Below are positions 2,056 through 34,940 of a DNA stretch of 37,926 bases, piece by piece (positions within the stretch are counted from its first letter, which is position 1; the number at the start of each line of letters is the position of its first letter). Origin of the DNA: Rhodospirillaceae bacterium (GTDB lineage: Bacteria > Pseudomonadota > Alphaproteobacteria > UBA7887); the NCBI GenBank assembly GCA_002728255.1, contig PBWV01000001.1, positions 1 to 37,926 of the forward strand, in the 5' to 3' direction. The notes under the pieces are model-generated. The model ran no database searches and was not told the DNA's origin. It worked only from the letters and a program-made list of their open reading frames with translations. The position numbers and the translations under genes were made by a program.

Positions 2056-2151
2056 TGTCAGCATTTCCTTCAGGTGCGTGGAGCAAATGTAAAACGGCTA
2101 GTGCGAGGACCTTGGAATAGTTTAATATTTCCCATACTCTCCTGTTGAGAA

Positions 2152-3420: not shown

Positions 3421-3425
3421 GGGTC

Positions 3426-3791: not shown

Positions 3792-4015
3792 TCTCTCGTT
3801 CCTGGTTCAAGTGGGCGAGCTTCTTCGGCAAGCATGATAGGTATGCCCTCACGGATCGGAAATGCCAGCCCAGCTTTCTTACTTATGAGTTCCTGAGCCT
3901 GTTCGTCGTATTGCAATGGGCCATGGGTTACCGGACACACAAGCACTTCGAGTAGTTTGGAATTCAATTTCGGACCTGTTTGCTGAGTTCTAGGTGGTTT
4001 GGGATTCTGTTCCAT
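3788..4015 (-). CDS. Trm112-like small protein (YcaR/UPF0434 type)
   Basis: A 75-residue protein whose core [17 protein letters not shown] followed by [13 protein letters not shown] is diagnostic of the bacterial Trm112-like family. Eukaryotic and archaeal Trm112 proteins are small zinc-binding partners of methyltransferases. The bacterial proteins have lost most zinc ligands; only one cysteine (CP motif) is present here. The first 15 or so residues are polar and proline-rich. The gene is followed by the DUF971 gene with a four-base overlap and lies 62 bases downstream of the LON-domain gene. The exact role in bacteria is not established. Confidence 0.85.
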
Positions 4016-4035
4016 CAGAAGTGTTTCTCCCTGTT

Positions 4036-4068
4036 AAAAATTGTGCGCCCATCTTGTTTGCGTGGCGC
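4036..4068 (-). terminator. Weak hairpin plus T-run between the LON-domain and Trm112-like genes
   Basis: On the minus strand, GCGCC (4068-4064) can pair with GGCGC (4049-4045), and after four more bases there is TTTTT (4040-4036). The stem is only five pairs with a 14-base loop, so this would be a poor intrinsic terminator, at best an attenuating one between two genes that read in the same direction. Confidence 0.22.
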
Positions 4069-4077
4069 TCTAACGAT

Positions 4078-4725
4078 TTAATGCTGAGCGGTCGAAGACG
4101 TTGCATTACTGTCGGTAGCCATAGTTAATAAAGACGTTATGAGACTGGTCAACTCTCCTAGGTTCTGAGTTTCAAGCAAAGCTTGTTTTTCTTCCACTGT
4201 AAAAGGGCATTGCATGGCTAGGGAGGTTAATAGTGAGGAGCTGGGTGTCTTTGTTATTTCTTCCCATTTTGCCGGAATATTTTTTGATTCTAAATATTGC
4301 CGCAACACTCTTTCCAAATTGTTGCGATCAATTTCGCCTTCGGAGGCAGGTTGAAGGTCAGCCCGAAATGGTTCCCAGTCAATTTGAAATGTGCGATAAT
4401 CGTTCTGCGGCGGCAGTTCTTCTGTAGTCTTAAATCTTATTAATCCGCTTAGTGTTATTAGCAAACGATTGTCTTCAGTTTCGGAAAACGACACGACTTT
4501 CCCAGCGCAACCGACCTCGTATAGATGGTCGCCTTTTTCGGTGCCTTTACGTTTTGGCTGTATCATGCCAATGAGCCAATTTGTTTTGAGGGCATCTCGC
4601 ACCATGCTGAGGTATCGAGCCTCAAAAATGTTAAGGGGTAACTTACCGGAGGGTAAAAGAATTGCACCCGGTAAGGGAAAAACGGGAAGTGTTTCGGGCA
4701 GATGCTCAATTTGATATGGTTGCAT
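4078..4725 (-). CDS. LON substrate-binding domain protein (no protease domain)
   Basis: This 215-residue protein consists of the N-terminal substrate-binding domain of Lon proteases without the AAA+ and protease parts. Near its start it has LPVFPLPGAILLPSGKLPLNIFE, split here as LPVFPLPGAILLP then GKLPLNIFEARYLSMV. This is followed by LIGMIQP and a beta-rich core ending in a helical bundle (residues about 130-200). Stand-alone LON-domain proteins are widespread in alphaproteobacteria and their function is not defined; substrate or chaperone-linked roles are guesses. The start at 4725 is four bases downstream of the thioredoxin gene's stop, so the two are almost certainly cotranscribed, which fits a protein quality-control theme. 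Confidence 0.88.
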   Translation of the reverse strand: MQPYQIEHLPETLPVFPLPGAILLPSGKLPLNIFEARYLSMVRDALKTNWLIGMIQPKRKGTEKGDHLYEVGCAGKVVSFSETEDNRLLITLSGLIRFKTTEELPPQNDYRTFQIDWEPFRADLQPASEGEIDRNNLERVLRQYLESKNIPAKWEEITKTPSSSLLTSLAMQCPFTVEEKQALLETQNLGELTSLITSLLTMATDSNATSSTAQH

Positions 4726-4729
4726 CTCT

Positions 4730-5644
4730 TTAAGAGAACAGAAGGGATGAAAGTTGACTGCGGGCCTCCATGGTTAACGGGTCGGTGGGGCCCATTGCCT
4801 CAAAATATTTTAGTAGCTGTTTACGGGCGGCGTCTTCATTCCAACTCTGATTTTGGCGAATAATCTCAAGCAACTCATCCACGGATTTGGCTCGTTCGCC
4901 TATAGCCCACAAAGCGCAAGCTAGATCATATCTTGCCTGGTGATCGGAAGGTGAAGCCTCAAGTTTCATCTTTAAGGGCTCCAGGTCCGCATCGGTGTTG
5001 GTTAATTCGGAGGCTTCCTCGGCCAACTCCAGAGCGGCAATCGCCCCAGAAATTTCTGCTTGCTGGTGAAGCGCTGGATCTAGCGAGTTTAGCAAGTCGC
5101 GTCCCTCAGATAACTGTCCCATGCTAACATGGCAGCGAAGAGCGCCGGCAATGGCAGCAGTATTGGCTGGGTCATGTGCAATGACTTGTTCGAAGATAGT
5201 TTGCGCTTGGGCGTGGTTATTTTGAGAAACAAGGGACTCGGCCTCCTCCAGAGCAAGGTCTATAGGTGACGGCCCCGAATCTCCAGCCAATCGGTCAATG
5301 AAGGCTTTAATTTGACTTTCGGGTTGGGCTCCCACGAAACCATCCACCGGCCTGCCATCCTTAAAGGCAAAGACCGCTGGTATCGACTGCACTTGCAACT
5401 GCGCTGCTATTTCTTGGTTTTCATCCACGTTGATTTTAACCAGTTTTACCTGGCCGTTTTTTCCTGTCACCGCCTTTTCTATTTGAGGACCAAGTTGTTT
5501 GCAGGGTTCGCACCAAGGTGCCCAGAAGTCCACCACCACAGGTGTTTCGCGGGATGCCTCGATCACATCAGAAATAAAATTCGCTGCGTCGCTGTCCTTT
5601 ACAACGTCGTCAGGTACAGCCTGACCACCTATAATGGGTTCCAT
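4730..5644 (-). CDS. cnoX: Thioredoxin-TPR protein (CnoX/YbbN type)
   Basis: The 304-residue protein has an N-terminal thioredoxin domain with active site WAPWCEPCK (Cys45 and Cys48) and the cis-proline loop SIPAVFAF (Pro89). A C-terminal half of helical TPR-like repeats runs from about residue 127 (ALEEAESLV, AQTIFEQVIAHDP, LACALWAIGERAKSVDELLEII). This architecture is that of CnoX, a cytosolic chaperedoxin that protects proteins from oxidation and hands them to GroEL or DnaK. E. coli YbbN lacks a complete CxxC, whereas alphaproteobacterial members such as that of Caulobacter keep it, as here. It is the first gene of the small series trx-TPR, LON, Trm112-like, DUF971. A ribosome-binding GGAG lies upstream of the ATG. 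The symbol reflects architecture and not a test. Confidence 0.85.
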   Translation of the reverse strand: MEPIIGGQAVPDDVVKDSDAANFISDVIEASRETPVVVDFWAPWCEPCKQLGPQIEKAVTGKNGQVKLVKINVDENQEIAAQLQVQSIPAVFAFKDGRPVDGFVGAQPESQIKAFIDRLAGDSGPSPIDLALEEAESLVSQNNHAQAQTIFEQVIAHDPANTAAIAGALRCHVSMGQLSEGRDLLNSLDPALHQQAEISGAIAALELAEEASELTNTDADLEPLKMKLEASPSDHQARYDLACALWAIGERAKSVDELLEIIRQNQSWNEDAARKQLLKYFEAMGPTDPLTMEARSQLSSLLFS

Positions 5645-5934
5645 TTCAATGTGCTCCGTGGTTCCTGACCATTATTTGATTCATAACCTGGCTCTTAAAG
5701 GCCCGTAAATAAATAGTTTGCTTCCGTAGTCCCAATTATATTTAGGCGCGATTTATCCTCAATTTGCGAAATAATACACCGATTTTGGGGTTATTCCATT
5801 GTTATTACTAGGCCTAATGCTTATGCCATGGGTAAAATGAAGAAAAGTCTCCGTGGACTTCGGCGTGCGGGTCTGATATGAGCGTGCCTGTGGTCTTCTC
5901 ACCTGGTCGTGTTGGAAAGGTGTGGAGTTTTTAT
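5645..5934. other. Intergenic region before the tRNA gene
   Basis: The 290 bases lie between the divergent starts of the thioredoxin-TPR gene (minus) and the tRNA gene (plus), so promoters for both should be here. I see AT-rich stretches around 5705-5830 but no -35/-10 pair good enough to call. No coding region is supported. Confidence 0.5.
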
Positions 5935-6009
5935 GCGGGCGTAGCTCAGGGGTAGAGCGCAACCTTGCCAAGGTTGAAGTCGTGAGTTCGAATCTCATCG
6001 CCCGCTCCA
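5935..6009 (+). tRNA. tRNA-Gly (anticodon GCC)
   Basis: A complete cloverleaf can be drawn. The acceptor stem GCGGGCG (5935-5941) pairs with CGCCCGC (5999-6005). The D arm contains GCTCAGGGGTAGAGC. The anticodon arm AACCTTGCCAAGGTT reads GCC, and the T arm is GTGAG-TTCGAAT-CTCAT with one G-T pair. The discriminator base is T, and CCA at 6007-6009 is encoded in the gene. The gene ends eight bases before the pyrE stop, on the opposite strand. No integrase or duplicated 3' end is seen nearby. Confidence 0.95.
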
Positions 6010-6016
6010 CTATTAC

Positions 6017-6580
6017 TTAGGCGGCGGATACGTCAAAGTCTGAAGCGCTGAATAATGCATGGAATGGGAGGTTTCGGCTGGCAAAGGCTTCTGTAGCACC
6101 CTCCTGTCTGTCAACCAGAGTAATGATAACGGAGACCTTACAACCTGCTGCCTCAAGCGCGTCCACGGCTTGCAAGGCTGAAGCGCCAGTGGTGGTAACA
6201 TCTTCAATAATAGCAACCTTTGTTCCCGCCGGTTGGTTGGGCTCAATCAAAGATTTGGTGCCGTGACCTTTTGTTTGTTTTCTGACAAAAAACCCGGCAA
6301 TAGGCAGGTCTGTCTGAAAGCTTCGGCATGTTACGGCGGCTGCAATAGGGACTGCACCCATTTCAAGGCCTCCTATGCTATCTACTCTGTATGGTTCCAG
6401 TAGCTCTAAGATAAGGTCGGATAAGAGCAGGGAGCCCTCCGGGTGAAAGGTTGTATTTTTCATATTAAAGTAATATTGGCTCGTCTCGCCGGAGGCCAGG
6501 GTGAAATTAGCGCCACATAATAGAGACTTTTCTCTTACTAGGTTTTTGAGTTTTTCCTTAATGTTCGTGCAGCTTGTCAT
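6017..6580 (-). CDS. pyrE: Orotate phosphoribosyltransferase
   Basis: PyrE makes orotidine 5'-phosphate from orotate and PRPP, the fifth step of pyrimidine synthesis, in the cytosol as a dimer. The 187-residue protein shows the PRPP-binding loop VAIIEDVTTTGAS at residues 122-134. It also has the mobile catalytic loop FVRKQTKGHGT at 98-108 and an early SGETSQYYFNMK substrate region at 30-41. The length is slightly short but within the range of the compact family members. The gene lies 59 bases downstream of purH on the same strand, so pyrimidine and purine synthesis genes may be cotranscribed here. Confidence 0.93.
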   Translation of the reverse strand: MTSCTNIKEKLKNLVREKSLLCGANFTLASGETSQYYFNMKNTTFHPEGSLLLSDLILELLEPYRVDSIGGLEMGAVPIAAAVTCRSFQTDLPIAGFFVRKQTKGHGTKSLIEPNQPAGTKVAIIEDVTTTGASALQAVDALEAAGCKVSVIITLVDRQEGATEAFASRNLPFHALFSASDFDVSAA

Positions 6581-6639
6581 GTGTTTCTCTCCATTGCCTC
6601 GGCGCTCTGCGCCTTCCTGTTTATAAAAGAAGTGCAGTA

Positions 6640-8226
6640 TTAGTGTCGGAAATTACGCACGCCCGTAAATACCATTGCGAGATTGTGATCGTTTGCGGTT
6701 TGTATAACTTCCTCATCACGTATGGACCCGCCTGGTTGAATAATAGCCTTTGCACCCGCCTTAACCAGCGCCAAGATTCCATCCGCGAAGGGAAAAAAAG
6801 CATCAGACGCGGCCACAGAGTTGGCAGTAGGGATGAGGGTCGCATTTTCCTCTTCACTGTTTTCGGATGCTTTCCACGCAGCTATTCGGGCGGAGTCCAC
6901 CCTGCTCATTTGTCCTGCTCCTATGCCTATTGTCATTCCGTCTTTTGCATATACTATGGCGTTCGACTTAACGTGTTTACATACACGAAAAGCAAACAGA
7001 AGATCATCCAATTGCTTATCCGTGGGCCTTTTCTTCGTTACGACTTTAAGGTCGGATGCGGTAACCTGCGAGTTGTCACTTTCTTGGACCAGCAAACCAC
7101 CAGTTATTGATTTTATGTTTAAGATCTTTTCATGAGATGCGGGCATCGTTTCCGTCAAAAGAAGCCGGAGGTTCTTTTTTGTTGAAAACACAACTTTTGC
7201 TTCTTCAGTCGCGTTGGGAGCAATAATCACTTCCGAAAATTTCTTGACAACTTCGGAAGCTACGTTTTTATCTATCGGGCAATTGAAGGCGACAATCCCG
7301 CCAAATGCGCTGGTTGGATCGCATTTAAGCGCGTTTTTATAGGCCTCTACAGCGTTCGCCCCTAGTGCAACACCGCATGGGTTTGCGTGTTTGATAATGG
7401 CTGCCGCGGGGCTATCAAATTCCCGAATTAACTCAAATGCGGCATCGGTATCATTAAGATTATTATAACTGAGTTCCTTGCCCTGAATTTGTTTGGCGTT
7501 TCCCACACCTGTACGACCATGGTCTAAAGGGAAAAAAGCGGCCTTTTGGTGCGGGTTTTCCCCATAACGCAAAGGTATGAGGGTGTTGGCTGAGAGCAAA
7601 AGCCTGGAGGGAATTGTATCTCCGAGGTCTTCGCTAAACCAGTTGGCAATCGCGACGTCGTAACTAGCGGTTCTTGCAAATGCAAGGCGGGCAAGTTTCT
7701 TGCGGAGCTTAAGCGATGTTGCACCCTGATTTTCTTTAATCTCTTTAGCCACCATCTCATAGTCATTTACGTTGGTAACTATGACAACCCTCTCATGGTT
7801 TTTCGCCGCTGACCGGATCATAGCGGGTCCGCCAATATCTATTTTTTCAATACAATCTGGCCGACTGTTCCCCTTTTTAACGGTTTCTTGGAATGGGTAT
7901 AAGTTAATTACAACCAGGTCTATTGGTTTTATTCCATGGCGGCTCATATCTTCAGCATCGTTTTGATTGTTATGACGCGCGAGAATACCCCCGTGTATTT
8001 TGGGGTGAAGTGTTTTAACCCGCCCCCCCATCATCTCTGGCAGGTCCGTCAAACTAGCTACCTCCGTGACGGGAATGCCTGCATTTTGCAGAGTTAGTGC
8101 CGTGCCGCCGGTGGATAATATTTCTACGCCGTAATCGTGTAGGTCTTGGCCAAAAGAAACAAGGTTAGTTTTGTCAGATACGGAAATTAGGGCCCGCCGG
8201 AGTTTTAGGGTTTTTGGATTAGTCAT
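6640..8226 (-). CDS. purH: Bifunctional AICAR transformylase / IMP cyclohydrolase
   Basis: PurH carries out the last two steps of IMP synthesis. The N-terminal MGS-like cyclohydrolase domain begins RALISVSDKT (residues 11-20) and contains STGGTALTLQ and GGRVKTLHPKIHGGIL (67-82). The C-terminal transformylase domain contains RYGENPHQKAAF (220-231), the catalytic Lys-His pair in AAIIKHANPCGVA (279-280) and SAFGGIVAFN (306-315). The protein ends in IQPGGSIRDEEVI and MVFTGVRNFRH, the standard PurH terminus. At 528 residues it is full length. The ATG at 8226 has GAGGA seven bases upstream. It is followed by pyrE on the same strand. Confidence 0.97.
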   Translation of the reverse strand: MTNPKTLKLRRALISVSDKTNLVSFGQDLHDYGVEILSTGGTALTLQNAGIPVTEVASLTDLPEMMGGRVKTLHPKIHGGILARHNNQNDAEDMSRHGIKPIDLVVINLYPFQETVKKGNSRPDCIEKIDIGGPAMIRSAAKNHERVVIVTNVNDYEMVAKEIKENQGATSLKLRKKLARLAFARTASYDVAIANWFSEDLGDTIPSRLLLSANTLIPLRYGENPHQKAAFFPLDHGRTGVGNAKQIQGKELSYNNLNDTDAAFELIREFDSPAAAIIKHANPCGVALGANAVEAYKNALKCDPTSAFGGIVAFNCPIDKNVASEVVKKFSEVIIAPNATEEAKVVFSTKKNLRLLLTETMPASHEKILNIKSITGGLLVQESDNSQVTASDLKVVTKKRPTDKQLDDLLFAFRVCKHVKSNAIVYAKDGMTIGIGAGQMSRVDSARIAAWKASENSEEENATLIPTANSVAASDAFFPFADGILALVKAGAKAIIQPGGSIRDEEVIQTANDHNLAMVFTGVRNFRH

Positions 8227-8312
8227 GCAGGTATCCTCGTAATTGGAGTTGTCTAAAAAATGTAGTGGCCGACCAGCCTTTGACAGTTCTAGTGCCCTGA
8301 TAAAAAACGATT

Positions 8313-10241
8313 TTACTCGGGATCTCCAGTGGTTCTAGTCCGGCTAAATTCTGGCACTAATTGGTGTAGGAACTCAAGCGTTGGCCCCTCTTCCCTTGCA
8401 CTGGCCAACGAGGAAAGTTTTGAAAGAGTTATTTGCAATGTATCTATAGCAGTCGGTTGAGTGACGGCAAGGCGGATTGCTTCGTGGTCGGTGGGAATCA
8501 AGGTTTCCCAGTCATGAAAGAGCTCCTCCGAGAGCTTTTCACCTCCTCTAAGGCCAATATATTTTATGGAGATATCTTCATCGGGCCTTAGTCCGGAAAG
8601 ACGAATAATCTGTTTTGCTAGATCTTGGATACGGATTGGTTCCCCCATATCCAGTACATAGAGACTCCCCAAAGGTTCAGAGGCGGTGTTAGCTTTTTTG
8701 CCTGGGGAGAGCGCTAATACACAGGCTTGCAATACTAGTTCTACAGACTCGCTCACCGTCATAAAATACCGCTGGATATCCGGGTGCGTCACTGTAAGAG
8801 GCCCCCCGTTAGCAAGCTGTTCCTGGAATAGCGGCACTACGGAACCTGTTGAACCCAAAACATTGCCAAATCGGACTGTCATAAAACGGGTACCACTATT
8901 TGGGTTCAGCGTGTTCAGAGCCTGGCAGTAGTTCTCCGCAAGCCATTTGGTTGCCCCCATTACGCTGCTAGGCTTGACTGCCTTATCGGTGGAAATTTGA
9001 ACCATAGCAGAAACATGGAATGCTTTGCAGACGTCGGCAACGTTCACGGTACCCTGTACATTAGTGAGGATAGCCTCACAAGGATTGGACTCAGCGAGAG
9101 GAACGTGCTTTAGGGCTGCGGCGTGAAAGACCAAATCAGGCCTTTCTGCCTCGAACAATTGGGACAAAAAGTTTTTGTCTCGGATATCGCCTAAAACAGC
9201 ACATTTATCCAAAGATGGAGCCTGTTTGGCCAGCTCTTTTTCTATGCAATATAGGTTATATTCGCCGTGGTCTAAGAGAATGAGCCGATGAGGTTGTTTT
9301 GCGGCAACTTGGCGGGAGAGCTCGCTGCCTATCGATCCGCCGGCACCGGTGATCAACACTTTGCGACCGCGTACCAGAGATGTCATCGCCGCTCGATCGA
9401 GCCGGGATTGAGGTCTTCCAAGAAGATCTTCAATGGCAATGGGGCGGGATTCGGTTACATTAGAGCTTTCCATTTTGAAGTCAGTAAGACGGGGGAGCCT
9501 CGCAAGTGTCATGCCGTGACTATCAGCTAATTCCAATAAGCTACGAATTTGCACACCGGTTACCGGTGCCCCTGCAATAAGTATTCGCTGAGGTCTCACG
9601 CTCGCCTGATTGAGGTCTTTCAGCACTCCTTCAAGGGTTGTCAAATCGCCAAGAATGGGTATGCCGTGGATGTACCTTCCTATAGCATCTCCGTTGGTTC
9701 CGATTAAACCAAGAATGCGGTATTGCTCCCCCGGTCTTTTTTGCTGGCGCAGAAAAGCATCAGCGATATCGTCCGTGCCAACTACTATGACGGGAATTCG
9801 GCTAAGGCCGCTGCTATCTAATAGTCCAACAACACCCCTGTCCTTAAAGATCCTATAGAAGAGCCGCGGACCTCCTAAAAGACCGATGAGTAGAAGCCAC
9901 GTAATTACTAATACCGACCTAGGGATAGACTCCAACCTAGTAAGAACAAACATTGCCAACGCAAAAATCAATATTGCTAGTGACACAGCCTTAGTAATGG
10001 CCAAAAAATCGTCCAGGGATGCGTAGCGCCAAATTCCCCGATAGAGGTGCATTTTGACGAATACAATCCCAGAGATGGTCGTAAAAATGATCGTGCCCTC
10101 TAGCAGAAATCCCTGAGCCTGGAGCCAAAAATCCGAGCCCATCCTAAGATATAAAGAGGAAATGAAAGCGACCCCTGCCATAATTATATCATGGCCGGCG
10201 GCTACGTAAGGGCGGTCTAATCTTAAGCGAAAGTGAGTCAT
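8313..10241 (-). CDS. WbpM/CapD-like membrane UDP-sugar 4,6-dehydratase
   Basis: This enzyme family converts UDP-GlcNAc to the 4-keto-6-deoxy sugar that feeds QuiNAc, FucNAc and related sugars. From the ATG at 10241 the protein has about 642 residues. Four membrane segments occupy roughly residues 20-125, followed by a CoA-binding-like Rossmann domain. The catalytic SDR domain has LITGAGGSIGSE near 296-307 and STDKAVKPSSVMGATK near 417-432. The Met-x3-Lys in place of Tyr-x3-Lys is typical of WbpM-type dehydratases. The open frame extends 45 codons further, but that would overlap the upstream gene by 124 bases and adds no conserved sequence, so I use the internal ATG, eleven bases after that gene's stop. 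Adjacent to a WbpL-like transferase, it marks the downstream end of the glycan locus. Confidence 0.9.
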   Translation of the reverse strand: MTHFRLRLDRPYVAAGHDIIMAGVAFISSLYLRMGSDFWLQAQGFLLEGTIIFTTISGIVFVKMHLYRGIWRYASLDDFLAITKAVSLAILIFALAMFVLTRLESIPRSVLVITWLLLIGLLGGPRLFYRIFKDRGVVGLLDSSGLSRIPVIVVGTDDIADAFLRQQKRPGEQYRILGLIGTNGDAIGRYIHGIPILGDLTTLEGVLKDLNQASVRPQRILIAGAPVTGVQIRSLLELADSHGMTLARLPRLTDFKMESSNVTESRPIAIEDLLGRPQSRLDRAAMTSLVRGRKVLITGAGGSIGSELSRQVAAKQPHRLILLDHGEYNLYCIEKELAKQAPSLDKCAVLGDIRDKNFLSQLFEAERPDLVFHAAALKHVPLAESNPCEAILTNVQGTVNVADVCKAFHVSAMVQISTDKAVKPSSVMGATKWLAENYCQALNTLNPNSGTRFMTVRFGNVLGSTGSVVPLFQEQLANGGPLTVTHPDIQRYFMTVSESVELVLQACVLALSPGKKANTASEPLGSLYVLDMGEPIRIQDLAKQIIRLSGLRPDEDISIKYIGLRGGEKLSEELFHDWETLIPTDHEAIRLAVTQPTAIDTLQITLSKLSSLASAREEGPTLEFLHQLVPEFSRTRTTGDPE

Positions 10242-10252
10242 TGGAGAAACAA

Positions 10253-11305
10253 CTAGGGTCCGACGGACTGAGATACTAGCCGAAAATAGCATAAAAGGGC
10301 TACTATCCCAAAAAAGGCCCCAATAAGACCCGGTAGGATTATAATGGTGCTTACCAACGCACAAGCAATCAGCCAAATGTTGGTTATTATGATTGCTCTA
10401 GTAGCTTGAGAATGGCTGAGTTGGCCAGCGACAGCCCTCTGATAGAAATGCTGCCTGTGGGCCTTCCAAACGGGCTCAAGTCTAATGGCCCGGTCAATTA
10501 GGGTCAGACTTGCGTCTACTAGGTAATAACTCGGTAAAATCAAAGCGGCGGCCCACTCTCCTTCCCGGGCTAGGCTGAAAAGTAGCCACCCGAGTAAGAA
10601 GCCTAAAGGTATACTGCCAACATCGCCCAGAAATAACTTTGCCGGATGCCAGTTCCAGGAAAGAAAACCCAAGGTTGAGGCGGCAACAATAATAGCGAGC
10701 GAGGAAATGTAACTTTCTGATCCAAGGAAGCCTAGCGTGAGGGCTATCCCCGCACATATTGAAATGGTTTCAACACCAGTTATGCCGTCGATGCCGTCCA
10801 TAAAGTTGAAGACATTCATAAACCAAATCCAACCTATACCGACTACTATCATTCCCAGGGGATGAGCTAGAAAACCCAACAACATAAAATCTGTTGGGAT
10901 TAGAAGCATACTTATTGTTACCACCACTGTTTGTGCAGATAAGCGGCTTATTACTGAAAGATTGCTGATATCATCAAACCAGCTGACTATAGCTATTAGT
11001 AGAGCCATTGAAGTTATCACACTAATTTGGCGCATATGATCTAACCCAAGTGCGCTGAGAGCCGCCCATCCAATTAATATCACGCTTACCAGGGCAATTC
11101 CTCCGCCCCTTGGTACCGAACCGCAATGACTTGATCGTGTGCCTGGGTTGTCCAGTATACGATGTCTTAACAGCAAGGAACGCGCGAATGCCGCGCATAA
11201 CCATGTTGAGCCGGCGGCAATCCCGGCTGACACAGCTAGTATCATGATGTCTAGAGGCACAACGGGCCTAAGGCCGATGTGGCAACTTTTAGAAAGGGGC
11301 GGCAC
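10253..11305 (-). CDS. WbpL/WecA-like polyprenyl-phosphate sugar-1-phosphate transferase
   Basis: Family members attach the first N-acetyl sugar phosphate from a UDP-sugar to undecaprenyl phosphate at the inner membrane, starting lipid-linked glycan assembly. The 350-residue, highly hydrophobic protein has the catalytic Asp pair in SWFDDISNLS (111-112). It also has NVFNFMDGIDGITG (164-177), LFLGDVGSIPLG (224-235) and the C-terminal loop KAHRQHFYQRAV (281-292), which resembles the AHRxHxYQ of WbpL rather than the loop of WecA or MraY. GTG at 11305 is the first start; GTG near 11260 or ATG at 11245 would remove an unusual short hydrophilic leader and may be correct. Placement just before the WbpM-like gene suggests the dehydratase product is its substrate sugar. 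Confidence 0.88.
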   Translation of the reverse strand: MPPLSKSCHIGLRPVVPLDIMILAVSAGIAAGSTWLCAAFARSLLLRHRILDNPGTRSSHCGSVPRGGGIALVSVILIGWAALSALGLDHMRQISVITSMALLIAIVSWFDDISNLSVISRLSAQTVVVTISMLLIPTDFMLLGFLAHPLGMIVVGIGWIWFMNVFNFMDGIDGITGVETISICAGIALTLGFLGSESYISSLAIIVAASTLGFLSWNWHPAKLFLGDVGSIPLGFLLGWLLFSLAREGEWAAALILPSYYLVDASLTLIDRAIRLEPVWKAHRQHFYQRAVAGQLSHSQATRAIIITNIWLIACALVSTIIILPGLIGAFFGIVALLCYFRLVSQSVGP

Positions 11306-11397
11306 GGCATGAATCCCGACGTGGACTTTGGTCCTACTTCGAGCCCAACATTGGTTACTTTTGTTTTGTGGAAAATTAATTTTGCAAGGTACATACG

Positions 11398-12864
11398 CTA
11401 TATGGCTTTCAATTTACGCCATGCGAATGTGATCATCCGCACTAGTAACCATCCGTCCCGAAAGCGAGAAATTTGGGTTACTCCATAGGTCCGCGCGGCA
11501 TAACGAATCGGTATTTCTGCTATTTTTAGGTTGAGTTTTGCGGCGCCAAAGAGGAGGTCATAATCTCCGAACGGGTCAAATTCTCCAAAATAGGAACGAT
11601 TTTCCGCTATTTTCTTATAATCCTCCCTCGAAAGTACCTTGGTGCCACAGAGGGTGTCGGTGAGCCTCTGATCTAGTAACCATGAAAATAAAATTGAAAA
11701 ACCCCTATTTGCCACAAGATTAAGAAAACGCATCGCCTTTGGGTCAAGGGGATAGATGAGCCGACTTCCATTTATAAATTCCCCCTTACCTTGGACGTAG
11801 GCATTATAGAATTTGGGTAAGGCCTCGGGCACTACAGTGAGATCGGCATCCAATATCATGAGGAGGTCGTTTTTAGCTTCGGCAAAACCTTTACGAACGG
11901 CATCACCTTTTCCAATGCCCTCTTGTACATAACTCCGTATATCCCAATCTGGATATGTGCGGATAACCCTATCAATTTGCTGAAGGGTATTATCGTCAGA
12001 GTGACCCTCAACAAATATCACTTCCATAGTTTGACAAAATCGGGGCATGCGAGATATCGCGTTTTCAATATTACCCTCTTCATTACGGCAGGGGATAATT
12101 ATGGAAACAGACGGGTTGGCAAGTGGTTTACGAACCTCAGGTCGAGCAACGATATAGTGGCGAAGGCATAGACTTCTTATAGCGGGCCACCAAGAAAAAA
12201 CTTTATTGATCACTCGGCCCAACCCAAAAAGGTGTTTCGGAACTAGCTGTCGGTAATTCCGTTTTACCACTTCAAAATCAGCAAGTTCCAGCAGGTGAGC
12301 AATGTCTCGTGAGGAAAGCCAATTCGATGGTACCTGACGCTGCTTAAATCCAAAACGTTCAGCTAGTTTTAGCGCCGGGCTCCAAAGGAGAGAGTAATAA
12401 GATACTATTATCCGAGTGTGTGGCTTACATAGTGTCTTGAGAGAGGCAAGCGTGTCAGAGATATCTTCTAACATTCCAATAGTGTCAGAGAGAATGATTA
12501 TGTCAAAGGTGCCTCCTAGTTTTTTGAACGTGTCAGGGTTTTCTATATCGCCTACATAAAACCTGTATTGTGGAAGATTATCTGTCGCTATTTGAATAGA
12601 TTTCTCGCTCAGGTCGACCCCCACACCGCTTCTTGGAGAGAGTGCTTCTAACAGATCCCCAACGCCGCACCCTAAATCCAGTATCCGAGCATTGGATGGT
12701 GTTAAAAAACGCATAAATCTATAGTGATCATCGTAGTAAAATTGGTTGCGTGCAATCCACGTCGTTCTCTGGTCAGCTACCTGGTCAGCTAGTGCCTTTA
12801 TAGTTTGCTTCCGCAGTGATAATGGCGCGTTTGTAGGTGTAGTTTCTAGGCTATTTTTCATCAA
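11398..12864 (-). CDS. Fusion protein: SAM methyltransferase + GT2 glycosyltransferase
   Basis: The 488-residue protein joins two enzymes. Residues about 40-200 form a class I SAM-dependent methyltransferase with ARILDLGCGVGDLLEAL (59-75) and the acidic VGVDLSEKS (81-89). After a linker with HYIVARPEVRKP, residues about 250-480 form a GT2 domain with VSIIIPCRNEEGNIENAI (253-270) and the metal-binding motif MILDADL (337-343). GT2 enzymes transfer sugars from nucleotide sugars, often to a polyprenyl-linked acceptor. There is no strong transmembrane pair at the C-terminus. The fusion implies that methylation and sugar transfer act on the same glycan or lipid carrier, but acceptor and order are unknown. 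The frame is continuous with no sign of an assembly join. The next gene upstream (CysQ) is 88 bases away. Confidence 0.88.
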   Translation of the reverse strand: MMKNSLETTPTNAPLSLRKQTIKALADQVADQRTTWIARNQFYYDDHYRFMRFLTPSNARILDLGCGVGDLLEALSPRSGVGVDLSEKSIQIATDNLPQYRFYVGDIENPDTFKKLGGTFDIIILSDTIGMLEDISDTLASLKTLCKPHTRIIVSYYSLLWSPALKLAERFGFKQRQVPSNWLSSRDIAHLLELADFEVVKRNYRQLVPKHLFGLGRVINKVFSWWPAIRSLCLRHYIVARPEVRKPLANPSVSIIIPCRNEEGNIENAISRMPRFCQTMEVIFVEGHSDDNTLQQIDRVIRTYPDWDIRSYVQEGIGKGDAVRKGFAEAKNDLLMILDADLTVVPEALPKFYNAYVQGKGEFINGSRLIYPLDPKAMRFLNLVANRGFSILFSWLLDQRLTDTLCGTKVLSREDYKKIAENRSYFGEFDPFGDYDLLFGAAKLNLKIAEIPIRYAARTYGVTQISRFRDGWLLVRMITFAWRKLKAI

Positions 12865-12952: not shown

Positions 12953-13738
12953 TCAGCCTCCATCGGCGAGAAAATTGGGATTTTCAAAGCCAGGTTTTCC
13001 GTAGCGTAAGCGCTCACCGGTAATAGTCCTTATGCGCCCGCCCGCCGCCGCTAGGATCGCGTGACCGGCTGCGATGTCCCACTCCATGGTCCTTCCAAAA
13101 CGGGGATAAATGTCTGCACTGCCTTCCGCGACTTTGCAAAACTTCAAGGAGGAGCCAGCGGCTTGGAAATCCCTTATCTTTTTTTGAGAAAGCCATTCCT
13201 CGGTTGCCGCGTTGGAATGGGAGCGGCTGCCCACTGCGGTGGGACCGGCGGGAGGGATTGGCCTTGTGCTGATTTGAATAGGATTTTCCCCGCCAGATGC
13301 CCTAAACGCTCCAACGCCGTTTTCACCCCAATAAATGCAGTCTTGTGCCGGGAGATAAATGACGCCTAATTGCGGTTTTCGGTGGACGATTAGGGCAATA
13401 TTAACGGTAAATTCATCACGCCCAGCTATGAACTCCTTAGTGCCGTCTAGGGGGTCGACAAGCCAGAACGGCTCACTTACGTTTTTAATGGCCTCCATGC
13501 TCTCAACGCTTTCCTCGGCAACAATTACAGCGCCCGGTTGTATGCGCTTTAGGGCTGTCACAATATGGTCGTTGGCTGCCTTGTCGGCTTTAGTGACAGG
13601 TGACATATCATGCTTCAGGTCGTACTCAACCACTCCGCTAATTGGGACAAAGGAATTTATAATTGCACCAGCTTCTGCGGCGATGGAGCATACTTGATGA
13701 ATGAGTGTAGATCCTGTTGGTACGAGAGAACCCATCAC
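12953..13738 (-). CDS. cysQ: 3'(2'),5'-bisphosphate nucleotidase CysQ
   Basis: CysQ removes the 3'-phosphate of PAP (3'-phosphoadenosine 5'-phosphate), the by-product of sulfotransferases and PAPS reductase. The 261-residue protein belongs to the metal-dependent, lithium-sensitive phosphatase family. It has AEES (74-77), WLVDPLDGTKEFIAGRDEFTVNIAL split as WLVDPLDGTKEF (92-103) then GRDEFTVNIAL, and WDIAAGHAILAAAGG (220-234). The KEF and RDEFTVN segments favour CysQ over inositol monophosphatase or histidinol phosphatase. It lies within the glycan locus close to a sulfotransferase gene (15050-15922), which gives it an obvious local job. ATG codons at 13738 and 13735 are both usable. Confidence 0.88.
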   Translation of the reverse strand: MMGSLVPTGSTLIHQVCSIAAEAGAIINSFVPISGVVEYDLKHDMSPVTKADKAANDHIVTALKRIQPGAVIVAEESVESMEAIKNVSEPFWLVDPLDGTKEFIAGRDEFTVNIALIVHRKPQLGVIYLPAQDCIYWGENGVGAFRASGGENPIQISTRPIPPAGPTAVGSRSHSNAATEEWLSQKKIRDFQAAGSSLKFCKVAEGSADIYPRFGRTMEWDIAAGHAILAAAGGRIRTITGERLRYGKPGFENPNFLADGG

Positions 13739-15049: not shown

Positions 15050-15922
15050 TTACAGTTTGAAGCTCTTTGCTCCGCTTAAAAGCTGCATCATTCTAAGGTT
15101 GCTGAGATCGTAAAAACTTTGGACAAACCTCTTCTCCTCGGATGACAGCGTATATTTGCTCTTGGAACCCAGAAGGGGCACGAGCTGTTTGCCTAATTTT
15201 CTTAGGCTCGGAGTGTCCGGGGCCCATCTTGGTAAGTGTTTTAATATCTTGGCTGCCGTTTTTGAGCGTCCAGAGTTTTGTGGAGGGGCAGTAAAAGGCA
15301 TTGGACTGAGGTCGAAAAATTCACAGAGTTCTCTGAGAAAGTCAGTTCTATTTTCTGAGAGTTGAGTGAAACTTAATACTTTAACATTTTCAGGGCCAAA
15401 TTCATCAATGTAAGCTTGTATCGTGAGGTCATAGTGGCCGGCTCGTAATAACACTTTTCCTTTTGATGTGGAGCAAAAGTCTATGAAAGAGCGGTGTCCC
15501 GGTTGCAAGTGATCAAGGTAATAGCTGTATGCTGAACTTAACCATGTAACCTGATCTCTGACTACCATTAGAACCTTGCTGTTTGGAAAGCGGGTGCGCC
15601 ACGCAGAGGCGATTTTTCTTGGAGCTATGTCGATAGCTTTACTCAAATCATTCCATGGAACACTTTCCCATTTGAGTTGAGGCCATAACTCGGGCTTCTT
15701 ATATATTACAGATTCACAGAGACGCTCTTGCATGGAAATATACAACTTGGCTTGTCCGGCTTGCCTTCGTTCTTTCTCTGAGAAGGTTACTCGACTTGGC
15801 GAAAATAGGTGGCGAGCTGCAATTCGATCTATAAAAACTTGCGGATGGGTTTGAAAAAATTTCTGAAGGAATGTAGAGCCTGCCTTAGAATAGCCCATAA
15901 AAAGGACATCAGGCTGTTTCAT
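15050..15922 (-). CDS. Sulfotransferase (PAPS-dependent)
   Basis: Sulfotransferases move sulfate from PAPS to hydroxyls or amines of sugars, lipids or proteins. The 290-residue protein carries the 5'-phosphosulfate-binding loop VLFMGYSKAGSTFLQKFF (6-23), with Lys13 as the probable catalytic lysine. The 3'-phosphate-binding segment KVLMVVRDQVTWLSSAYSYY (116-135) has Arg122 and a following Ser. A conserved-type GHYD (about 162-165) and a C-terminal SSEEKRFVQSFYDLSNLRM fit the Sulfotransfer family used for surface glycans and nodulation factors. It is the last gene of the long minus-strand unit and overlaps the ligase/polymerase gene by 14 bases. It likely sulfates the locus's glycan; CysQ nearby would clear PAP. 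It converges on the FabH-like gene. Confidence 0.88.
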   Translation of the reverse strand: MKQPDVLFMGYSKAGSTFLQKFFQTHPQVFIDRIAARHLFSPSRVTFSEKERRQAGQAKLYISMQERLCESVIYKKPELWPQLKWESVPWNDLSKAIDIAPRKIASAWRTRFPNSKVLMVVRDQVTWLSSAYSYYLDHLQPGHRSFIDFCSTSKGKVLLRAGHYDLTIQAYIDEFGPENVKVLSFTQLSENRTDFLRELCEFFDLSPMPFTAPPQNSGRSKTAAKILKHLPRWAPDTPSLRKLGKQLVPLLGSKSKYTLSSEEKRFVQSFYDLSNLRMMQLLSGAKSFKL

Positions 15923-30008: not shown

Positions 30009-31595
30009 CTATTGGGCTATGTAGTTCTTATAAAAATCGGGCGGACAGCCCGTGTTATCTGATGTAGATTCAATTGCATTGCCCAAATCATCACGGGAAA
30101 CCCTAAATCTTCCCCGATCATCTTGAGAGGCGCTTACGATTTTGCACCTTTTTAGTAAATCCGGTTTGGTTGTTTTATCAAAGGCGCGAATGGTTGTGTC
30201 GGCAAGAATAATATTGTGGTGGGAAGCGAGGGCATCGAAGAAGGCGCTGCCAGCGAAATCGAAGATTAGAAAATCTACCTCGTGGTCGAGCGGGTCAAAA
30301 AACCCGGTTATTACCCTATCAGAATAGGGCTCCAAGAGCGATCTATTGGGCATTATCCCTCTGGGGTGGAGTTTGGTGGTTATGCGATAGCCAAGTGACC
30401 GCAACTCCTTGAGAAGTGAGACTTGCCAGTCTAGGTACAAAACATCGGGTGGCTTTCGACTTGCGAAGTCCGCCAACGCCTCTCCCAGATAGCCGCCAGC
30501 CACATATAATGCCTGTCTTGTTTTTGAACCGTGCCGTCGTTTTTGGCCATTTTCATAAATATGTCGGTGTCGACTTGATCCATTAGAAAGAAATTTTATT
30601 GTATTTGCTTGTGGGGATCCAGCGATCTCCCGATTTGCAATTCGTTTTTTTATAGCGTGGGCTTCTCCTGTGCTATGGGTATAGTACTTGTCGCAATTTA
30701 CTAGCTCGGCCACAGCCCACTCATTATCAACAAAAAAAGCCCGTTCGCCGCCGTGTGCGAAGCGAATGACTGGACGGGCATCCTGCTGGTACAAAAATGA
30801 CGTAAGACGACCAAGGTGCTTTGGTGTGCCACTGAGCAATCGGAGTCCTAGTGCCCTTCGGCGGGTGGATCTACTGATAATTGTATAATCTAGCCCTGCT
30901 TTCCCTAAGTGATAGTGTATTAAAAGATTCCCCAATTGTTTCAGCCGCTTCAGTAATAACGCTTTCACGGGCAGGTTTTCGGATACTAAAGAATTAAAAG
31001 TCTCTGTCAGACAGATAGTAAGATCATTAAACTTTGTTCTGCCTTGGCTAGGCTCTCTCCAACTAAATAGGTTGGCCGGCCAGTCAACTTGGCGACCCGG
31101 GTGCAATGTGAGATAGTCGCTAAGCAGGTAATTCCGATTAAGAATATCGTCGTGCTTAGCCACAGCAATTGCTTGTCCATGTGTAATCCATCGTTTGGCT
31201 GTTTTCTTTATCCGTGGCCAAATTGTACTATCAGGCGGGTGGTGCCAGACCCGAATCCTAGAAAGATTGTTTAGGGTGTTACCCGTATCTAGGAAGGCTA
31301 ATAAAGGACTTTCCCTTGGGCTATAGCGCGGTGTTGGGTTGTTATTAAGGTCTAACCCAAGTCTGCAAATGAAAGCAAGGTCGGTTATTATATCGTAGGC
31401 TTTTGCATCTCCCAGGATGCGGGGAAGAGTACTCTTCTGAAACTGAAGAATGGCCTGAAGAACGCGAGTAGTAATGGCATTAGATATGGCGCTATAGTCG
31501 TGGTAGTTGGTATGCCACGATAACTCATTTAGGGCCGCAGTTCCGTCTCCTAAGCTAGCTATATCAAGTGGGGTTGAGGACGAAACTTTATCCAT
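30009..31595 (-). CDS. Uncharacterised large protein, possible GT-B glycosyl- or sialyl-type transferase
   Basis: The 528-residue protein matches no family I can name confidently. Visible features are an N-terminal basic, helical region and a central FAHGGERAFFVDNEWAVAEL (279-298) followed by CDKYYTHS (301-308). The C-terminal half is Rossmann-like, with YVAGGYLGEALADF (364-377), VLYLDWQVSLLKELRSLGYR, an HP motif in TKLHPRG (407-413) and FDFAGSAFFDALA (445-457). The HGG plus D/H pattern and the later strand order recall the LIC12162-type transferases and other surface-carbohydrate GT-B enzymes. An HP motif followed by a Ser in a glycine-rich turn also occurs in bacterial sialyl- and Kdo-transferases. 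Two genes away from neuA/neuB, it could be the transferase for the CMP-nonulosonate. That is inference. Its ATG lies one base after the upstream stop. Confidence 0.55.
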   Translation of the reverse strand: MDKVSSSTPLDIASLGDGTAALNELSWHTNYHDYSAISNAITTRVLQAILQFQKSTLPRILGDAKAYDIITDLAFICRLGLDLNNNPTPRYSPRESPLLAFLDTGNTLNNLSRIRVWHHPPDSTIWPRIKKTAKRWITHGQAIAVAKHDDILNRNYLLSDYLTLHPGRQVDWPANLFSWREPSQGRTKFNDLTICLTETFNSLVSENLPVKALLLKRLKQLGNLLIHYHLGKAGLDYTIISRSTRRRALGLRLLSGTPKHLGRLTSFLYQQDARPVIRFAHGGERAFFVDNEWAVAELVNCDKYYTHSTGEAHAIKKRIANREIAGSPQANTIKFLSNGSSRHRHIYENGQKRRHGSKTRQALYVAGGYLGEALADFASRKPPDVLYLDWQVSLLKELRSLGYRITTKLHPRGIMPNRSLLEPYSDRVITGFFDPLDHEVDFLIFDFAGSAFFDALASHHNIILADTTIRAFDKTTKPDLLKRCKIVSASQDDRGRFRVSRDDLGNAIESTSDNTGCPPDFYKNYIAQ

Positions 31596-31596
31596 T

Positions 31597-33267
31597 TCAA
31601 TCTGGTTTCTTGCAGCGCAAAAATATTTTTATGTTAAGCGCAATTTCCTTAGCGACAGAGTGAGCATCCCTTTGATCAATGTGAATTACTTTAAGGAATG
31701 CATTATTCTTTTTTGTAGTTTCAAGTAGTAGTGTTTGGTAGCGATTTATTTCATTTTCCTCCAATTCTTGTTTACGATCGTATATGTTTTTGGGTGTGTC
31801 AATGAGTATGAAGCTCATGGCGGGCTGTGGTGTCAATCGGCAAAATATTGCTACGGCGCAAATATGGTACCAGGGGCGCTTGCGGATTTTTAGGTCGGTC
31901 AAACGATCATATATATAACGATCGGCAAGCGCTATTTGTCCCGATTCGGAGATATCAAAAAGCTTAGAAAAAATCGATGTAGCATAAGTATATTCATCTA
32001 TAAGTGCACGGAGGAGATATCGGACTGCGCTTGGTAAAAGATGCCAACAGGTACGGAGAACGCCCTTGCTGTTATATGGTCGTATCCTCTCAGGGTTGTT
32101 GCGCATCTTGTCGAGACGATGGTGAAAGCCCGTGGCGGGGATCCCCTCTTCCTGAAGTATATTGAGTGCTATACCTAGGGAGGTACTTTTGCCAACGCCA
32201 TGCGCCCCTGAAACAACAAAAAAATGCTGGGACAAGGAGTTAGTAGATGGGAAAGTGGCCTGGCGTTTCAGCCGCAGGCCGTGCCTAGTGTCGGTCCAGC
32301 ATTGTTTTACAGCGTTTAATTGTCTGATTAAGCTCTGCTTCGGGTAAAGGTAAAACTCCGATAATTTGCGGGCTGCAATTGGTCTTCGCCACCCAACTGC
32401 GATTATAGATTTGAGGTATATTCCTGTATGGTTTCCCAGTGTGGTTGAGCGAATTGTCTCCAGTTCACTTTTGGTTAATAGGTGCTCCCAAGTGCCACCT
32501 GGGGTGTAGAAACCTCGAGACTTCTCAAATCGGAAGTGTGGAGTAAAGTCAAAGTTTGAATAAAAATCTATTTTATCACTTTGAAAAAAATTAGCGGCGT
32601 TGCGTAATTCTTGATCATTTTTCTCACAAAGTAAATCAAGTGACATCGTGATTACATCATTGGGATTTGTTCGAGATAAATTGCGGGACACTTGCTGCGA
32701 AAGAGCTAAGAGGCCTAATATATTGCGGAAACGTGTATGTCGATCGCTGGGAGGCTGTGGCCAAGTTCGCCAGTACATGGCTGCGGCAACAGCTGATTCT
32801 GGCTGCCTTTGCATTACAGCTAATCTTAAATTAGGAATCTTTGAACGATATAATGTGTAGCGAAATTCGGGATGAAGATCAAAGGCTGCCCAGGTACGCT
32901 TATCATGTGAAAGTGCTATTTGTTGTAATATCCAGCTTAAAAGCGACACTTGGTTGTCTATTGTTTTTGGGACGTCGTTAAGCAGCTGACGGCCATGACT
33001 ATTGATAAATTCGGCCGGAGTTTTTATTGCACTGCGGGAACCATCTATATACCGAGGGCGGTTGATGTACTCTTCAACTATTTTGTGTAGCTGCTGTTCG
33101 AAAAATAGAAACACGCGTTTGTCATATACATGAAAGACGGCCTCTAGCGGAAACCCAAATACTGGGCCTCGACTATTAAACAAAGCATCAGCAAGTAAGG
33201 TCTTCCCAGATCTTCCGGCACCTCCTATAAGTGTAGGTCCCAGCGTTTGAGGTTTATCCGGTTTAAT
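31597..33267 (-). CDS. Dual P-loop protein: N-terminal Walker A domain + thymidylate-kinase-like domain, probable ATT start
   Basis: An automatic start (TTG at 33183) gives 528 residues, but the same frame is open upstream to a TGA at 33373-33375. The upstream part encodes a textbook Walker A, LIGGAGRSGKTLL, immediately before that TTG. No ATG, GTG or TTG exists in frame before the TTG. ATT at 33267 is preceded at five bases by GGGGG, and would give 556 residues. The N-terminal half continues with FDLHPEFRY and RLAVMQRQPESAVAAAMYWR, reminiscent of sulfotransferase or kinase domains. The C-terminal half has a second Walker A, VVSGAHGVGKSTS (351-363), LADRYIYDRL (447-456) and SFILIDTPKNIYDRKQELEE, as in dTMP-kinase-like proteins. 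The exact function is unknown; a sugar or nucleotide kinase coupled to modification is possible. It abuts the 30009-31595 gene. Confidence 0.7.
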   Translation of the reverse strand: MKPDKPQTLGPTLIGGAGRSGKTLLADALFNSRGPVFGFPLEAVFHVYDKRVFLFFEQQLHKIVEEYINRPRYIDGSRSAIKTPAEFINSHGRQLLNDVPKTIDNQVSLLSWILQQIALSHDKRTWAAFDLHPEFRYTLYRSKIPNLRLAVMQRQPESAVAAAMYWRTWPQPPSDRHTRFRNILGLLALSQQVSRNLSRTNPNDVITMSLDLLCEKNDQELRNAANFFQSDKIDFYSNFDFTPHFRFEKSRGFYTPGGTWEHLLTKSELETIRSTTLGNHTGIYLKSIIAVGWRRPIAARKLSEFYLYPKQSLIRQLNAVKQCWTDTRHGLRLKRQATFPSTNSLSQHFFVVSGAHGVGKSTSLGIALNILQEEGIPATGFHHRLDKMRNNPERIRPYNSKGVLRTCWHLLPSAVRYLLRALIDEYTYATSIFSKLFDISESGQIALADRYIYDRLTDLKIRKRPWYHICAVAIFCRLTPQPAMSFILIDTPKNIYDRKQELEENEINRYQTLLLETTKKNNAFLKVIHIDQRDAHSVAKEIALNIKIFLRCKKPD

Positions 33268-33271
33268 GATT

Positions 33272-33277
33272 TCCCCC
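33272..33277 (-). promoter_or_regulatory. Ribosome-binding-like site for the proposed ATT start
   Basis: On the minus strand the bases GGGGGA (33277-33272) lie five bases (counting from the last G) before ATT at 33267. This is the only purine-rich Shine-Dalgarno-like run between the neuA stop (33335) and the first Walker A codons, so it supports initiation near this point. Confidence 0.4.
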
Positions 33278-33334
33278 GAGTGTTTGGCAGAATAACGATT
33301 ATGTAATCTGATAGTGTTAATTAAGAGTGAGTTT

Positions 33335-34048
33335 TTATTTTGTGGAGCACCCTTCGTTGAGAAGGAAAGAGTTCATTAAGGCTTCGCAAAAAGTTAAATC
33401 GGAGGGTTCATCAATTTGAAAACTTTTCCAGAGTTCCATTTCCCATATGCCTATTTTACCACCTAGGCGGTTATTGTGGCTTTGGATGCAGTCCGGTGTG
33501 AAGATCCAAAAAGAACCGTTTTCTAGGAATTGGTCCGGCTTTTCTTGTCGCCGGCCACGGTTTTTGTAATCATAGGTATAACTAGAAAGTTGGCCGTCAG
33601 CGGACGGCTTCCAGATGTTGAAATCGGTAACCAAGCTTGCTGAGAACAACGAGTCTAAGTTTTGCTCAATGAAGTGTTGAATAGCTCCATCAAAGTCCAC
33701 GCTGCTTCGGACGGGAGACGTGCATTGTGGTCCTACAATTAACTTTACCGAGCGGCCTGTTTCTTGAATATATTTGAGGGCATGTAACCAACCACTTTCC
33801 GATGAAGCTGTATCACCAGATATGTGGGAAGGGCGTGGAATTACCTCCGCACCATACTCCTTAGCAACGTTAAGGATATTGGTATCGTCGGAACTCACCC
33901 AAACGCTGTCGATATGTTGTGCGTCAAGAGAGTGTTCAATGGTCCACGCAACCAGTGGTTTCCCGCAGAACGTGGCTATATTTTTTCCAGGAATACCTTG
34001 GGATCCGCCTCTGGCAAGAATTATAGCGATATTTTCAGCCATTTTCAT
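33335..34048 (-). CDS. neuA: CMP-nonulosonate (sialic acid type) cytidylyltransferase
   Basis: NeuA-type enzymes activate a nonulosonic acid with CTP to the CMP-sugar donor. The 237-residue protein has the nucleotide-binding ILARGGSQGIPGKNIATFCGKPL (main motif ILARGGSQGIPGKNI) and WVSSDDTNILNVAKEYGAEV. IVGPQCTSPVRSSVDFDGAI is next, and the C-terminal FQIDEPSDLTFCEALM holds the metal-binding Asp. The segment GSFWIFTPD is also family-typical. Whether the substrate is Neu5Ac, legionaminate, pseudaminate or Kdn-like cannot be read from these motifs. The gene is downstream of neuB with a 31-base gap, and its stop precedes the dual P-loop gene. ATG codons at 34048 and 34042 are both possible starts. 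Confidence 0.9.
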   Translation of the reverse strand: MKMAENIAIILARGGSQGIPGKNIATFCGKPLVAWTIEHSLDAQHIDSVWVSSDDTNILNVAKEYGAEVIPRPSHISGDTASSESGWLHALKYIQETGRSVKLIVGPQCTSPVRSSVDFDGAIQHFIEQNLDSLFSASLVTDFNIWKPSADGQLSSYTYDYKNRGRRQEKPDQFLENGSFWIFTPDCIQSHNNRLGGKIGIWEMELWKSFQIDEPSDLTFCEALMNSFLLNEGCSTK

Positions 34049-34079: not shown

Positions 34080-34940
34080 TTAGCCAGGGACATTTTTTCG
34101 GAGCTTCTCACGGGCGGATTGTTCTGATTCTTGTAGAGTTTTCTCGCCATTCCCAAGCACTTTGGGAAATACCCTCACGGCTGATGTAAAGCTTCGCAGT
34201 GCTTTTGTTTCTATAGATGCGGCTTGATCAGAGCCATACATAGTTCTGTCCAATGTCACATGCCTTTCAAGGGAAGTAGCCCCTAATGCGAGGGCAGCGA
34301 TGCAAACGGTGACTAGACTTGTTTCGTGACCAGAATATCCCACCGGAACGCCATAACGGCTTTTGAGTGCTGGGATCATTCGCAAATTAGCCTCTTCCAC
34401 ATTCATGGGATAAGTCGAATTACAGTGCATGAGTTCAAAGGGGCATTGGGCTTTACGAAAAAGACCCACAACTTGATCTATTTCCTCCAGAGTGGACATT
34501 CCAGTTGATATAAATGTCCGTTTTCCTTGTGCCGCTATGTCCCTGATTAGAGGGATATGCCCTAACATTGGAGAAGCTACTTTGTGAAAAGGCGGGTCAA
34601 ATTCTTGGAGGAACTGTAAGCTTTCTTGATCCCAACAGGATGCAGACCACGATATATTTTTACTCTGGCAATAGGCGTCTATTGTCTTGTATTCCTGCAA
34701 CCCAAATTCCAGACCTTCCTTCTGCTCACGCTGTGTATTTCCCCACGGGCTCTCTCTGTGGCTGTCCAAGTACTCTTCTGTATAAACAGCATTGATAGTG
34801 CGCTTTTGGAATTTTACGGCGTCGAAACCAGCGTCGGACGCTGCATCTATCATCTGTTTAGCGAGTTCCAATGAACCATTGTGGTTAATACCAACTTCAG
34901 CAATCAGAAAAATTGGTGTCTCTGAAAATTCTGATGACAC
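34080..34940 (-). CDS. neuB: Nonulosonate synthase NeuB family, short form without SAF domain
   Basis: NeuB-family enzymes condense phosphoenolpyruvate with a six-carbon amino sugar or mannose derivative to make a nine-carbon acid. The 286-residue protein has the TIM-barrel blocks FLIAEVGINHNGSLELAKQM (11-30), AVKFQKRTINAVYT, FHKVASPMLGHIPLI and TFISTGMSTLEEIDQVV. ELMHCNSTYPM and the metal-site GYSGHETSLVTVCIAALALGAT follow, the core being GYSGHE. The protein ends with ESEQSAREKLRKNVPG, just where longer members (about 340-350 residues) begin their C-terminal SAF/antifreeze-like domain. Short forms of this kind occur in other surface-glycan loci, so I read it as complete, not broken. It precedes neuA; precursors for both would be made by genes outside the window. 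Confidence 0.9.
   Translation of the reverse strand: MSSEFSETPIFLIAEVGINHNGSLELAKQMIDAASDAGFDAVKFQKRTINAVYTEEYLDSHRESPWGNTQREQKEGLEFGLQEYKTIDAYCQSKNISWSASCWDQESLQFLQEFDPPFHKVASPMLGHIPLIRDIAAQGKRTFISTGMSTLEEIDQVVGLFRKAQCPFELMHCNSTYPMNVEEANLRMIPALKSRYGVPVGYSGHETSLVTVCIAALALGATSLERHVTLDRTMYGSDQAASIETKALRSFTSAVRVFPKVLGNGEKTLQESEQSAREKLRKNVPG

Follow-up and report, generated by a model that had tools for sequence, protein, structure and literature searches.

The window, by which we mean the whole stretch of 37,926 nucleotides from contig PBWV01000001.1 of a Rhodospirillaceae bacterium, carries on its minus strand a neuB-like synthase gene (34080..34940; PF03102, 1.2e-68) and, downstream of it, a neuA-like cytidylyltransferase gene (33335..34048; PF02348, 1.6e-23). 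Overlapping the last 38 nt of neuA is a minus-strand frame of 591 codons (33372..31597) that is open, with no internal stop, between a TGA at 33373-33375 and the TGA at 31597-31599. We propose that it holds a coding sequence of 556 codons plus stop (31597..33267, minus strand) that most likely begins with an ATT codon (33265..33267) and whose N-terminal and C-terminal parts are matched separately by homologues. One nucleotide past its stop lies the ATG of a further minus-strand gene (30009..31595), the product of which has 528 residues and no Pfam or NCBIfam match; homologues of this family-less protein are encoded in the cluster of relatives, near the gene for the N-terminal part, at loci L006, L013, L014, L015 and L017.

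A script scan of positions 33334-33220 found no ATG, GTG or TTG in any minus-strand frame between the neuA stop (33335) and the sequence encoding a glycine-rich loop, GGAGRSGKT (33199..33225, minus strand). The first canonical start in frame is the TTG at 33181..33183, which the mechanical list of open reading frames uses as the start of the fused gene, giving 528 amino acids. An earlier, sequence-only reading of this DNA had described the open frame and the missing starts, and on both points the frame check and the scan found it to be exact; its expectation that a standard gene call would leave out the loop was borne out by the same list. Its view that half of the identity of the protein would thereby be hidden was too strong: a start at the TTG removes 28 residues (the loop, strand 1 before it and the greater part of helix 1), and Pfam has no match to the N-terminal domain of the window protein even at full length. 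The near-cognate codons in frame ahead of the loop are ATT 33321, ATC 33312, ATC 33270, ATT 33267, CTG 33243 and ATA 33228. By codon use, a run of 63 codons with no canonical start has an expectation of about 4%, which is unremarkable alone, so it was to homologues that we turned for a decision.

When the whole fused protein was used as the query against genome contigs there were zero matches. In the same-genus genome, G001, the N-terminal part is a separate gene of 338 amino acids, beginning MKTSDTNRISHPTLIGGAARSGKT, and a profile made from the two-sequence alignment of the N-terminal domain retrieved six loci from genome contigs; these belong to alphaproteobacterial MAGs and one single-cell genome, and one of them (L012) is apparently the contig of G001. 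A class-wide search of 385 genomes yielded no further homologues of the domain, and none was found on plasmids. All seven aligned sequences contain GGA(G/A)RSGKT, so the loop within the additional residues that the sequence-only reading had assigned to the protein is conserved in every homologue. The homologues start with ATG in five cases and with TTG in the sixth (L013), and the six starts sit 10-13 residues ahead of a conserved LIGG. In the window this distance is 12 residues from ATT 33267, 13 from ATC 33270 (as in G001), 4 from CTG 33243 and 27-30 from the upstream ATT and ATC codons. Since the homologues keep the loop and begin 10-13 residues before LIGG, the 28 disputed residues belong to the protein, and since the protein sequence is kept far upstream of TTG 33183 (38-42% identity), the start-less stretch is more than chance. 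Two marks of an AUU-type start are found here: coding sequence conserved upstream of every in-frame ATG, GTG and TTG, and a near-cognate codon at the homologous start accompanied by a Shine-Dalgarno element. On this comparison the gene almost certainly starts with a rare codon, at ATT 33267 or right beside it, and ATT is the most likely one.

The Shine-Dalgarno-like element is GGGGG (33273..33277, minus strand), 5 nt upstream of ATT 33267. With the canonical anti-Shine-Dalgarno sequence assumed, the 16S gene not having been found in the assembly, pairing with the 16S tail was -8.6 kcal/mol for ATT 33267, -4.5 for ATC 33270, -3.3 for CTG 33243 and 0.0 for TTG 33183, and +2.0 and +2.9 kcal/mol ahead of the upstream candidates ATT 33321 and ATC 33312. 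As good a value or better was obtained at 2.8% of random window positions; the pairing is the strongest among the window genes as listed, some of which have provisional starts, and it equals the value for infC of this genome. Homologue comparison does not separate ATT 33267 from ATC 33270, which is next best, and it is the distance and strength of the Shine-Dalgarno element alone that favour ATT. The preference for ATT 33267 in the sequence-only reading thus agrees with both homologue length and pairing strength, with ATC 33270 not firmly separated from it by the homologues, while by both measures its alternative, CTG 33243, does less well. No RNA element was found by Rfam around the start and the leader RNA folded no better than shuffles (z 0.35); for these reasons a structured regulator is not proposed.

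The N-terminal domain (32257..33267) is modelled as a sulfotransferase fold with putative activity (AlphaFold pLDDT 78). Foldseek searches with the model returned tyrosylprotein and other PAPS sulfotransferases with a probability of 1.00 and E values down to 1e-5, at TM scores of only about 0.4. Sulfotransfer_3 of Pfam is matched by four of the seven members (best 8e-5), the window member having no match, and a PDB sequence search with the domain profile gave no credible match. The phosphosulfate loop of sulfotransferases canonically reads RSGTT or KSGTT and their 3'-phosphate motif is R-x(7)-S. Here the loop, which connects strand 1 to helix 1 in the model, reads GRSGKT or ARSGKT in all members, and in 7/7 the Arg of the second motif is conserved and its Ser is replaced by A or E. 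What the sequence-only reading called the first Walker A motif of the protein is conserved in every homologue, and by fold model and Foldseek it is more likely a 5'-phosphosulfate loop than the Walker A of a kinase. The domain resembles the PAPS sulfotransferases (Sulfotransfer_3; TPST2, 3ap3; the curacin sulfotransferase, 4gbm) in predicted fold, in the position of the loop and in an R-x-P after the next strand; it differs from them in having GRSGKT rather than RSGTT, in the replacement of the Ser eight residues past the motif Arg and in the weakness of the family's sequence match. The same cluster contains an ordinary second sulfotransferase gene (15050-15922, minus strand; Sulfotransfer_1/3, 1e-9) in which the 3'-phosphate Ser is present, and its presence makes sulfation of a surface glycan plausible.

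The C-terminal domain (31600..32250) is predicted to have a thymidylate-kinase fold (model pLDDT 86; best Foldseek matches thymidylate kinases, 8e-8) and has the P-loop GAHGVGKST at 32208-32182 on the minus strand; five of six members match Thymidylate_kin of Pfam. By predicted fold, P-loop, DRY motif and nucleotide-kinase layout it qualifies as a thymidylate-kinase-like P-loop kinase. It shares with Tmk (TIGR00041) the fold, a GxxGxGKS/T loop and the DRY motif and differs in falling far under the cut-off of the dTMP-kinase model, the window protein being absent from the matches and a relative scoring 16.2 bits against 83.25. The same genome encodes a genuine, separate Tmk on contig C42. G001 has a second, more distant thymidylate-kinase-like domain, which is fused to a different N-terminal region, about 180 residues long, that precedes it (L006:16539-17876, minus strand). 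A joint alignment of the N- and C-terminal homologues was dropped since it misaligned the two P-loops.

The order PhyH-neuB-neuA followed by the N-terminal-type gene is conserved in L013-L017, and in L013, L014 and L016 the kinase-type gene comes next, its match beginning about 20 nt past the stop of the N-terminal-type gene. In G001 the two genes are about 8 kb apart and the N-terminal-type gene follows neuB instead of neuA. The fused form was seen in the window alone. In L013-L017 the neuA stop and the start of the N-terminal-type gene are at most a few bases apart, which suggests translational coupling; the spacer in the window is 67 nt. The proteins encoded at 667-11305 of the window are 83-92% identical to those of the same-genus genome and those at 12953-13738 60%; beyond 13738, in the polysaccharide cluster (15050-37236), identity is 35-73% and the genes are reordered, which suggests that the cluster is a swapped cassette. 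Among the other window genes with homologues in the retrieved loci, several were flagged because the homology reaches upstream past the first start. The one most similar to a second case, a glycosyl-phosphate-transferase-like gene (10253-11413), was rejected because the conservation is that of an untranslated leader, with an in-frame stop there in the same-genus relative; in the others the extension is short or shared with close relatives alone, or the gene is cut by the end of the window.

We consider it probable that this is an intact fused enzyme gene that starts at AUU 33267 (AUC 33270 being the second choice), with a stand-alone Shine-Dalgarno element and inefficient, IF3-sensitive initiation. 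It would be a real gene for a two-domain enzyme, part of a surface-polysaccharide cluster of the nonulosonate (sialic-acid) type, formed by fusion of two neighbouring genes of the sulfotransferase and thymidylate-kinase folds, although the catalytic roles are, like the exact start codon and the low level of expression, matters that we infer. Ribosomes would be positioned at the AUU by the GGGGG element and would insert fMet as usual, giving the predicted N-terminus (Met)KPDKPQTLGPTLIGGAGR. In most relatives the first gene of the pair, whose start coincides with the neuA stop or adjoins it, is probably translationally coupled; in the window the coupling and the old ATG may have disappeared, their role passing to an AUU close to a good Shine-Dalgarno element. 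The strong stand-alone ribosome-binding element would partly offset the weak codon, and by analogy with infC, pcnB and the AUU and AUA genes of S. aureus initiation would be inefficient and sensitive to IF3. The ATT is confined to one species, the same-genus G001 having ATG, and because all six homologues use ATG or TTG this appears to be a lineage-specific case, unlike a conserved regulatory start of the infC kind; a regulatory purpose for the AUU is unproven, since AUU is absent from the relatives.

A translationally crippled gene, one that lost its ATG recently and is now decaying or expressed at noise level with no functional start, is an unlikely alternative to an intact AUU-started gene. 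The canonical starts of the relatives speak for it, as does a local nucleotide alignment in which the ATG of G001 lies opposite GGAT..AAA at about 33257 and not opposite the ATT (shuffle P 0.015, one test, uncorrected); this is a hint that the former ATG was a few bases downstream of the ATT and that a small deletion, and not one substitution, may have removed it. About 35 kb of the window (41-35219) is present a second time at C19:176358-211533 with 99.7-99.8% identity, which looks like an overlap of two contig ends that represent the haplotypes of two strains, and three of the five haplotype differences in the fused gene are replacements and two silent, so that strong constraint is not evident. 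Over fourteen genes there are 21 silent to 16 replacement differences, and such small counts neither show nor exclude relaxed selection; against decay, all 591 codons are open in both haplotypes, the conserved residues are intact in both domains and a strong Shine-Dalgarno-like site is correctly placed. The sequence-only reading had also raised a sequencing error, and the assembly, which is fragmented and has duplicated haplotype contigs and 4.8% contamination, might seem to invite an ATG misread as ATT or an indel masking the true start. We think this very improbable: the C19 haplotype is identical to the window over 33164-33484, ATT included, an agreement that is not fully independent as reads may be shared across these 320 identical bases; substitution errors are rare in a multi-read consensus; and a simple indel would supply no start, there being no ATG, GTG or TTG in any intergenic frame.

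That another near-cognate codon is used is improbable. All the candidates are in frame and ATC 33270 matches G001 in its distance to LIGG, but Shine-Dalgarno pairing is weaker at each of them than at ATT 33267, and CTG 33243 and the upstream codons at 33321 and 33312 fall outside the 10-13 residues seen in the homologues. Ribosomes could in principle enter by frameshifting from neuA, whose end the frame overlaps, or begin without the loop at TTG 33183, the choice of the ORF finder; either is extremely improbable. We rejected the frameshift as the homologues start independently of neuA, the G001 gene following neuB, and the TTG lacks Shine-Dalgarno pairing, lies inside helix 1 and as a start would cost the protein the preceding strand 1 and loop and most of that helix, all of which the homologues keep, making it implausible for an intact fold.

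The intact AUU-started gene also allows a bolder reading, which we regard as doubtful: that the N-terminal domain is the first of a family descended from sulfotransferases, with the phosphosulfate loop turned into a true Walker A (GxxxxGKT), the 3'-phosphate site lost and another nucleotide donor in use, and that its fusion to the kinase is held at low, IF3-dependent output by the AUU. Were the Walker A reading and the AUU both correct, surface-sugar modification would respond to translation initiation capacity. As it stands, the finding is a well-supported further instance, drawn from comparative sequence data, of a known type of start, the near-cognate codon, and concerns a fused enzyme gene. 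It indicates that sequence alone, given homologues for comparison, is enough to recognise AUU-type starts, that standard gene calls drop a conserved loop, and that such a start may arise in a gene whose translational coupling has been lost. Attention is also drawn to an undescribed pair of sulfotransferase-fold and thymidylate-kinase-fold proteins, fused here, in the nonulosonate surface-polysaccharide clusters of marine Alphaproteobacteria.

To our knowledge, documented natural AUU starts are very few once infC is set aside, and nearly all of them come from model organisms. The infC gene of the same genome (L011:1495-2031, minus strand) has no ATG, GTG or TTG until codon 23; GAGGAG precedes the sequence TAA-ATA-GCT-AGA-ATT-CAG that leads into its conserved N-terminus, and for infC of this group AUA (or AUU) is the expected initiation codon. 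In most of the relatives read (L024-L042) infC likewise has an AGGAG-like site followed by ATA-GCN and no canonical start ahead of the conserved N-terminus, and an AUA start for IF3 looks to be conserved among these Alphaproteobacteria. With its own infC lacking a canonical start and ATA-GCN in most relatives, the lineage does use starts of this kind. Non-canonical starts of the IF3 gene are known elsewhere (PMC5472188, PMC13009471, PMC9410913), and natural AUU and AUA starts with strong Shine-Dalgarno sequences have been shown experimentally (PMC13009471). The known cases include infC and pcnB of E. coli (AUU), cvfC1 (AUU) and ccpN and infC (AUA) of S. aureus and sigR of Streptomyces (GUC) (PMC9410913, PMC13009471, PMC5472188). 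Those cases were shown by experiment, several are conserved across species and they concern regulatory genes, whereas the window case is read from sequence, is found in one species and concerns a biosynthetic gene. Like them, it lacks a canonical start for an N-terminal coding region that is conserved, and has a non-canonical codon in its place. In S. aureus such starts are reported to accompany strong, well-spaced Shine-Dalgarno sequences and lower output (PMC13009471), and it is this layout that the start of the window gene resembles.
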